Under the pieces are notes generated by a model. It saw nothing but the letters and a program-made list of their open reading frames with translations. It had not been told where the DNA came from and searched no databases. 41,815 nucleotides of DNA, from NCBI GenBank assembly GCA_005787785.1, contig SXZT01000038.1, positions 1-41,815 of the forward strand, written 5' to 3'. Shown piece after piece: positions 16,897 to 19,331 of the stretch. The stretch comes from Actinomycetota bacterium (GTDB taxonomy: Bacteria > Actinomycetota > Acidimicrobiia > Acidimicrobiales > Ilumatobacteraceae). The translations under genes were made by a program, and so were the position numbers. Numbering within the stretch: position 1 is the first letter of the stretch; every line of letters begins with the position of its first letter.

Positions 16897-17517
16897 TCAA
16901 CGGGCAAAAATCGGACAGTCATCGTCGCCGACGGGACAATTCGGCGCTGCACGACGCACGAGGAGGAAGCACGACGTACACATCTCTTCGTCTGCGCGAC
17001 GTGGCTGAAGGGCATCTCCGTCTGTGGACCTGTCCTCCACCTCATGCTCTTCGTCGTCTTCGTTGGGCTGGTCGTCGGCAGCGACGAGACGATCCTTCAG
17101 AATCGTGTCGAGGTCGGCCTCGACGTCGTCAGGAGTCGTCAGATCTTCGTCGTCTTCTTCTTCTGTTGCGCGACGCGCGGCAGGAACAATCTCTTCCTCT
17201 TCTACGTCTTCTTCGGCAACGACGTCGACGAAGGCCTCATCATCGTCGAATTCGCTGCTTTCGGCTTCGAATGCCTCTTCGTCGAGATCTTCCGGGTCGA
17301 TCTCTTGTACATCGAGATCCATGTCCTCTTCGATGATGTCGTTTATCTCATCATTTGCGTCACCGCGAAGAGACTCGGCTACAGGGACTGCAGGGTCGGC
17401 GGCAGCCACCGGCTGCTTGCGCGATTTCTTGCTCGGTTGGGATTTGCCGGCCGATGACTTGCCTGTTGCGGCCTTCTCGGGGGCCGCGCTTTTTGGCTTG
17501 GCCTTCTTGCTTGCCAT
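16897..17517 (-). CDS. DUF4193-like acidic protein with Lys-rich N-terminus and C-terminal Cys motif
   Basis: ADLDTILKDRLVA..., long Asp/Glu tracts, EEMCTSCFLLVRRAAPNCPVGDDDCPIF C-terminus, resembling the actinobacterial DUF4193 signature. Confidence 0.72.
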   Translation of the reverse strand: MASKKAKPKSAAPEKAATGKSSAGKSQPSKKSRKQPVAAADPAVPVAESLRGDANDEINDIIEEDMDLDVQEIDPEDLDEEAFEAESSEFDDDEAFVDVVAEEDVEEEEIVPAARRATEEEDDEDLTTPDDVEADLDTILKDRLVAADDQPNEDDEEHEVEDRSTDGDALQPRRADEEMCTSCFLLVRRAAPNCPVGDDDCPIFAR

Positions 17518-17673: not shown

Positions 17674-19290
17674 TCAGGACTTACCGCGACGCGATTCGGC
17701 ACGCCGCTCTGATTCGAGACGTTCTAGTTCGGGCGCCTCGGTGGTGATATGTGTCATTGCATCGGCAATCGCCCTGTGGCCGGCTCGATCGCGAATCTGA
17801 CAATGCATGTCGAGGGCAACTTTGCGGTACGCGGGGTGGCCCTGGGGACTCGAGCGCAGTTCAAGCATGTGCATTGCTTCACGTGCATTGAATTGCATCA
17901 CGTATCTGATGCGGTACGCCATCGACAACGCATACGGGGCCTGGGCCGGATACTCAACGGCGAGCGCGTCATACAACGATGCACTGCGCTGCATCACTTC
18001 ATCGAAGACCCCCGCCTGGCCGGCTTCGCCGACGACTTCGGGCCGTACATAACCGTGATTCGGCGTGAGAGGTTGCCACTCGATCGTGAGAAGACGGTGG
18101 CGCTGGAGATCCCGGAACGCACCGTAGTCGGAGAGAATATCGAATCGATAGTCCGTCCGTTCGAAGGCGCGACCGGGTCGATGCCGGCGGTTGGTACGGT
18201 CTCCCACGTAGGCCCTGATGAGGGCGACTTTTTCTTCGTGTGACATGCGTTCGATGCGACGTGCGATGTCGGTTTCACTGCGATTCGTGTGCGAGTAGCA
18301 GATGGCTGCGAGCACCTTGTCTTCCCCGTCAGGGTCGAAATCGGTCAATGTCACGGACTCCGCTTTGGAGTCGTCGACGCCGTCATCTTCGAACAGCGCA
18401 CGAACGGCGAGGTCTGTCTCGGTAGCGGTGTCGATGAGGTACTGCGACCAGCGCCCGCCACGGTCGGGCTGGTCGACGCGACGCAGGAAACTGGGTATCA
18501 CTTTTCGCAGTTCGGTGAGCATCAAGTCCGCATAGAGCCGGGCTTCGGGAAGAGAACTCGAACGCATACGCAAGAGCAGACCCTCGAACGCCTGGCCGCT
18601 TCCGTATATGCCAACGTTCGACAGTGCCGCTGCCGGAAGGGCACCCCGTACCGCGTCGAGAGCCTTTGCCCGCGTCGCCTGTCGGTACACGAAGTCGCTG
18701 TCTTTCGGTCCCTGTGGAACAACCCGGCGCACGTGGTCAGTCAGCGATTCGACCAGGACGCTGTAGGAATCGAACATACGGTCCATATCACCCACGTAGC
18801 GTGTGCCGTACTTGCCGGTGAGAACGTCTGGATCGCGAAAATAGCGGTAACGGCCGCCCAGGCGTACGTCGTAGGAGATGTACCGCGTGCTTTGCTCGAG
18901 GTAGCTCATCAGCCGGCCCCACTCGAGGATCTTTGTGAGGATGTTCGAGGCCTGCTCGCAGGCAAGATGAACGCCACCCAACTGAGCCACCGAGTCGTCG
19001 CCATACTCGACGAAGACTTTCTCATAGAGATCCTCGGCCCGTGAGACACCGATGGTCGCATCAAATGTTTGGTCGCCCCGAATATCGAGTTCACCCACGA
19101 ACTCGTCGAGGAAGAGACGCCGCAAACTTTTCGCACTGCGGCTGTACCGCGCAAAGAGGGCACCCTTCACGACCTCGGGCAGGTTGACGAGGGCAAACAC
19201 GGGCGAATCGAGGTTGGTGAAGTAGCGGCGCAGGATGTCGGCCTCGGTCGGACTGAACTCCTCGGGCACGTACACCGTCACGGCGACCAA
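17674..19290 (-). CDS. Tandem ThyX-like protein (FAD-dependent thymidylate synthase superfamily)
   Basis: Half 1: VEYGDDSVAQLGGVHLACEQASNILTKILEWGRLMSYLEQSTRYISY. Half 2: NRRHRPGRAFERTDYRFDILSDYGAFRDLQRHRLLTIEWQPLTPNHGY...YVMQFNAREAMHMLELRSSPQGHPAYRKVALDMHCQI. Confidence 0.8.
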   Translation of the reverse strand: MVAVTVYVPEEFSPTEADILRRYFTNLDSPVFALVNLPEVVKGALFARYSRSAKSLRRLFLDEFVGELDIRGDQTFDATIGVSRAEDLYEKVFVEYGDDSVAQLGGVHLACEQASNILTKILEWGRLMSYLEQSTRYISYDVRLGGRYRYFRDPDVLTGKYGTRYVGDMDRMFDSYSVLVESLTDHVRRVVPQGPKDSDFVYRQATRAKALDAVRGALPAAALSNVGIYGSGQAFEGLLLRMRSSSLPEARLYADLMLTELRKVIPSFLRRVDQPDRGGRWSQYLIDTATETDLAVRALFEDDGVDDSKAESVTLTDFDPDGEDKVLAAICYSHTNRSETDIARRIERMSHEEKVALIRAYVGDRTNRRHRPGRAFERTDYRFDILSDYGAFRDLQRHRLLTIEWQPLTPNHGYVRPEVVGEAGQAGVFDEVMQRSASLYDALAVEYPAQAPYALSMAYRIRYVMQFNAREAMHMLELRSSPQGHPAYRKVALDMHCQIRDRAGHRAIADAMTHITTEAPELERLESERRAESRRGKS

Positions 19291-19331
19291 CTCTAGGAGT
19301 CCCGAACCCGTGTTGCAGGGATCCGCCGGGG

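Follow-up and report, generated by a model that had tools for sequence, protein, structure and literature searches.

A tandem ThyX protein of Acidimicrobiales with its catalytic signature divided between two domains: a probable composite-site thymidylate synthase

Can a protein with two ThyX-like halves, neither of which holds the whole catalytic signature of the family, still serve as a thymidylate synthase? The question is raised by a minus-strand reading frame of an Ilumatobacteraceae bacterium, located in the 41,815-nucleotide stretch of DNA that was analysed as a whole (the window). For this frame, the sequence-only reading proposed either a composite active site formed by the fused dimer or a new flavin-dependent function.

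The reading frame and its two Thy1 domains

The frame at positions 17,674–19,290 comprises 538 codons when counted from a TTG, and a protein of ~538 aa had been assumed. The frame itself is real, but the true start is probably the GTG at 19,281, which gives a coding sequence of 535 aa at 17,674–19,281 (minus strand) with orthologues in 59 of 60 relatives. We favor this start because the position is occupied by GTG in 30 and by ATG in one of the 31 relatives checked, and the TTG at 19,290 sits in an upstream stretch that varies among relatives. Residues are numbered here from the TTG (538-codon version). A −10-like hexamer TAGAGT is located at 19,290–19,295 (minus strand), 8 nt upstream of the GTG, and a TANNNT box stands ~8 nt upstream of the conserved GTG in the 14 relatives inspected for it; no obvious Shine-Dalgarno sequence precedes the GTG within 19,279–19,295 of the minus strand. 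This suggests that the fused thyX mRNA may be leaderless, as in leaderless actinobacterial mRNAs.

The Pfam model Thy1 (PF02511) matches the whole protein in two stretches with 111.7 bits (cut-off 24.8), and each half exceeds the cut-off alone: half 1 (residues 83–267; 18,490–19,044, minus strand) with 47.4 bits and half 2 (residues 321–501; 17,788–18,330, minus strand) with 68.1 bits. Both halves were also matched in the search of the bacterium's own genome. For profile comparison, 165 fused proteins were gathered, some of them being the same gene fetched twice, and 78 were left below 80% identity. Using hhalign, the profiles of the halves built from these 78 non-redundant homologues matched a profile of 53 canonical ThyX at 98.8% (half 1; pairwise E-value 8e-17) and 99.2% (half 2; pairwise E-value 7e-20). 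Thus the suggestion of two ThyX-like halves in one frame is upheld by each half separately, and the case of only one ThyX fold did not arise, as both halves appear homologous to ThyX at the level of sequence profiles. When half 1 and half 2 were compared directly by hhalign, no convincing similarity was observed (5.6%).

Comparison of the fused-family profile with the PDB retrieved ThyX of M. tuberculosis via half 1 (E 9e-7) and ThyX of T. maritima and H. pylori via half 2 (E ~5e-4). A profile from a diverse alignment was required for these matches: a single-sequence phmmer search of the PDB with the fused protein gave none, and a shallow half-1 profile gave insignificant ones only. The NCBIfam equivalog model of ThyX, TIGR02170 (211 positions, single-domain ThyX), scores the fused protein at 43.2 bits, under its cut-off of 87.9, and matches all 38 members of one homologue set (A1) with E-values up to 0.001; the fused split form explains the low scores of such proteins against single-domain ThyX models. 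There is no match in the fused protein to PF00303 (Thymidylat_synt), the family of ThyA, which catalyzes the same metabolic step but has an unrelated fold and chemistry and is not homologous. The AlphaFold models of the whole protein (mean pLDDT 54.6, pTM 0.36; 47 sequences) and of half 1 (mean pLDDT 49.5; 55 sequences) were poor because the input homologues were too alike.

A catalytic signature divided between the halves

Half 1 carries the ThyX motif WGRLMSYLEQSTRY (W124 to Y137; 18,880–18,921, minus strand), in which the dUMP-binding and lid part is present. Half 2 carries RHRLLTIEWQPLTP (R397 to P410; 18,102–18,061), in which the FAD-binding part, RHR (R397-H398-R399; 18,094–18,102, minus strand), is retained and the S-x-R-Y positions are taken by P407, T409, and P410. 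Both motifs lie where the sequence-only reading placed them, and its description of half 2 as keeping RHR without the following Ser and STRY holds in full, each residue of the RHR being found in 78/78 homologues. Its description of half 1 needs a correction: E-x-S-T-R-Y is present, but of the supposedly lost RHR only the first two residues are gone, the place being mostly W/R-G-R (W-G-R here) with the third Arg present in 75 of the 78 homologues.

Further ThyX positions follow in both halves. E132, S134, R136, and Y137 of half 1 are conserved in 78/78 each, the last three being equivalent to Ser105, Arg107, and Tyr108 of M. tuberculosis ThyX, and S100 (18,991–18,993, minus strand), equivalent to the FAD phosphate ligand Ser71, is Ser in 78/78. 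In half 2, the RHR corresponds to Arg95-His96-Arg97; R479 (17,854–17,856, minus strand) corresponds to the dUMP ligand Arg199 and is found in 78/78; and N468-A-R470 (17,881–17,889, minus strand) corresponds to Asn188-x-Arg190, where Arg190 contacts the FAD phosphate (N in 73/78, R in 75/78). At the reciprocal positions these residues are missing or vary: among the 78 homologues, half 2 has unrelated residues at the S-x-R-Y place and Arg at the place of Ser71 (R374, 76/78), and half 1 has mostly S/T and Q at the Asn188-x-Arg190 places, with Gln at that of Arg190 in 74/78. Arg87 is not conserved as Arg in the fused family. A contiguous RHR-x(7)-S-x-R-Y signature within one domain is absent; by alignment column it is split across the two domains in 78/78. 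If both halves are counted, the key residues of one ThyX site (RHR and Arg199; Ser71 and Arg190; Ser105, Arg107, and Tyr108) are all present. The division of one motif over the two halves, first noticed in this single protein, is therefore invariant in 78 sequences below 80% identity, which is far from chance and is not local decay. Four apparent exceptions were produced by a simple motif regular expression; none of them falls in the aligned columns, and we attribute them to chance occurrence of the pattern at other places in the half.

Each active site of M. tuberculosis ThyX is built by three subunits: subunit A provides RHR 95–97 and Arg199; subunit B provides Ser71 and Arg190, both to the FAD phosphates; and subunit C provides Arg87, Ser105, Arg107, and the lid Tyr108, with S-x-R-Y binding dUMP (PMC6514825). 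Since the half-2 invariants match the residues of subunit A and the half-1 invariants S134, R136, and Y137 match the signature residues of subunit C, the halves are, by residue correspondence, specialized for complementary subunit roles. The subunit-B pair is untidy: half 1 has the Ser71 equivalent but Gln at the place of Arg190, and in half 2 both are Arg. By parsimony, we infer that half 1 serves as B and C and half 2 as A, an assignment that would give a homodimer with two full and two dead sites.

Like canonical ThyX (PF02511; M. tuberculosis 2AF6/3GWC, T. maritima 1KQ4/4GT9), the fused form has Thy1 in both halves and, jointly, the equivalents of RHR, Arg199, Ser71, Ser105, Arg107, and Tyr108; it differs in having two domains in a chain of ~535 aa, with no domain bearing the full signature. 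Whereas canonical ThyX is a homotetramer with four sites, the fused form is most likely a homodimer that imitates this tetramer and has two composite sites. In the proposed mechanism, half 2 would always act as subunit A and half 1 always as subunit C, and two fused chains would assemble into a pseudo-tetramer. In each live site, FAD would be held mainly by half 2 and dUMP by both halves, and the methylene of methylene-tetrahydrofolate would be transferred to flavin N5 and then to dUMP, as in ThyX. With a probability of about 0.8, we consider the protein to be a working flavin-dependent thymidylate synthase in which two specialized ThyX domains are fused and form composite sites. It would then show cleanly how, in nature, a homo-oligomeric enzyme can turn into a fused specialized pair with complementary half-sites. 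Because each half would be committed to one subunit role, the contributions of residues in ThyX could be probed independently of one another, an option closed to the symmetric tetramer. A further suggestion, speculative and rather unlikely, starts from the residues still conserved in the dead sites, W/R-G-R from half 1 and both P-G-R and N-A-R from half 2: these sites may have been recruited for a different task, e.g., allosteric nucleotide sensing or a separate NADPH site, making the protein a built-in half-of-sites enzyme.

The halves might also form a thymidylate synthase that shares no sites, with the active site lying within one half or with half 1 being structural or regulatory only. The occurrence of RHR, N-x-R, and R479 in half 2 alone in most members agrees with such an arrangement, and the poor AlphaFold models leave room for it. 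However, the invariant S134, R136, Y137, and E132 of half 1 have no such counterparts in half 2, and a mere scaffold would not need dUMP-binding residues; we judge an unshared site improbable.

Thymidylate synthase candidates across genomes

A check for a separate canonical thyX or thyA had been proposed. In the bacterium's own genome (1.87 Mb, 78% complete, a draft of 162 contigs), the fused protein is the only Thy1 match, and neither a ThyA (PF00303) nor a second Thy1 was found. The order was sampled with 99 genomes, drawn at 90% completeness or above apart from the bacterium's own. Thy1 was observed in 95 of them, nearly always as two matches, and the order matches listed lie in frames of ~540 aa or longer, except for contig-end fragments. 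ThyA was detected in only four of the 99, two of these matches being weak and partial. Three single-contig genomes have the fused form alone, as judged by the Thy1/ThyA search; full-length ThyA beside the fused form occurs in rare genomes, two of which were noted. Four genomes of the order (91–96% complete) have neither Thy1 nor ThyA, probably due to incompleteness. Overall, in most Acidimicrobiales sampled, no thymidylate synthase of the ThyA/ThyX type other than the fused protein was found.

On a larger scale, the fused form is missing from 18 of 119 genomes of the class, and 13 of these 18 were tested: ten have ThyA and three have a canonical 220-aa ThyX. ThyA stands in for the fused form in several families of Acidimicrobiia. 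In the phylum sample, the fused form was found in 95 of 298 genomes, and a strong ThyA match is present in one of these 95 as compared with 42 of the other 203 (Fisher P 6e-7, uncorrected for kinship). This is the replacement pattern expected of a functional thymidylate synthase. We predict that most Acidimicrobiia, and about one third of the Actinomycetota genomes sampled, depend on the fused form as their essential thymidylate synthase.

These data bear on the proposed new flavin-dependent function, by which a ThyX-derived enzyme would catalyze, for instance, another methylation or a reductase reaction, thymidylate being supplied by salvage or by an unknown synthase. A complete ThyX signature in neither half, the score below the NCBI equivalog cut-off, and the full-length ThyA in the two rare genomes are in line with this possibility. 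At the same time, it does not explain why most of the order, the single-contig genomes among them, has no other ThyX/ThyA candidate, why ThyA or canonical ThyX is present where the fused form is absent, or why the dUMP, lid, and FAD residues are retained, divided between the halves. Given this alternation and the match to the subunit roles, a new function is unnecessary, and there is little chance that it is correct. A composite site formed by the fused dimer is strongly favored by the complementary subunit residues kept in the two halves, together with the sole-candidate status in most of the order. The possibility of an assembly chimera or of a pseudogene undergoing decay, conceivable in a draft genome of 162 contigs, is already refuted by open full-length orthologues at 61–92% identity in most of the 60 relatives (a few being cut at contig ends) and by homologues in single-contig genomes and on annotated plasmids.

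In three families of the phylum sample, no Thy1 match is listed for several near-complete genomes, and their ThyA matches are weak (E 1e-8 to 1e-11; frames of ~220–330 aa); the sole enzyme in these genomes may be a ThyA of divergent or methanogen type.

Family spread, earlier descriptions, and gene neighborhoods

Members of the fused family were found in Acidimicrobiia and other Actinomycetota, on plasmids of Bacillus, Paenibacillus, Miltoncostaea, and Euzebya, in a Parabacteroides record, and in the jumbo phage Tunturi_5. The proteins of the Bacillus and Paenibacillus plasmids, named FAD-dependent thymidylate synthase in the NCBI plasmid records, and gp50 of Tunturi_5, which belongs to an existing double-length phage family (PHROG phrog_36506), have two Thy1 stretches with the same split motif at ~22–26% identity. 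They differ from the window protein in that the Arg190 equivalent is present in half 1 and missing from half 2, and thus both subunit-B residues are in half 1; in addition, the Bacillus and Paenibacillus forms carry RHNR in place of RHR. In a tree of 21 half 1s, 21 half 2s, and 14 canonical ThyX (183 columns, LG+G4), all half 1s are separated from the half 2s, with canonical ThyX in between (ultrafast bootstrap 100 and 97). This topology is suggestive of a single ancient origin of the fused form, although domains this short and diverged limit its weight.

A ThyX protein with a domain duplication has been described in Chloroflexi, where it is reported to be the only thymidylate synthase of most members (Valas and Bourne 2009, PMC3224940). 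The likeness, compared by description alone, is a single chain with two ThyX domains, and the Chloroflexi protein likely belongs to the same family as the fused form. The duplicated form is thus not new as an observation. The sequence-only reading would have yielded to a match with a long form already characterized; such a match exists, yet the part of that paper dealing with it offers no analysis of residues and says of the protein that it "has not been characterized". Neither a later characterization of duplicated ThyX nor a description of the complementary split was found in the open-access literature. Three points seem not to have been described there so far: that the split is invariant, that it matches the subunit roles, and that the fused form is the sole enzyme in Acidimicrobiales.

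Several related forms were observed in passing. Two genomes have a second fused ThyX (G179:C108, locus L138; and G265:C5/C71). The G179 second copy, ~39% identical, has N-x-R in both halves and may represent an intermediate state with regard to the subunit-B role. Weak single Thy1 matches in five other actinobacteria with relatives that carry the fused form were considered as split or half-lost fused forms, and this was ruled out: these genomes carry instead a different ThyX of ~300 aa with the motif NTHRxxSRNSxSSRA, which reaches just 39–44 bits with Pfam Thy1 and which we take to be the type known from actinophages. A replicon of Parabacteroides distasonis recorded as a plasmid (NZ_OY725790.1) encodes a fused ThyX 47% identical to the window protein, suggesting transfer between phyla; a DHFR gene lies ~3 kb from it.

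Other gene neighborhoods also contain nucleotide genes, in keeping with a thymidylate role: a dCMP deaminase gene adjoins the fused gene of Tunturi_5, and dcd is near that of the Euzebya plasmid. The conserved neighbors of the window gene, an M20 peptidase, a DEAD-box helicase with a DSHCT domain, and an acidic protein, carry no thymidylate information. The latter, encoded downstream at 16,897–17,517 (minus strand), is a very acidic protein of 206 aa with no Pfam match and a C-terminal CxxC...CP segment, and it is kept in 78 of 80 related loci.
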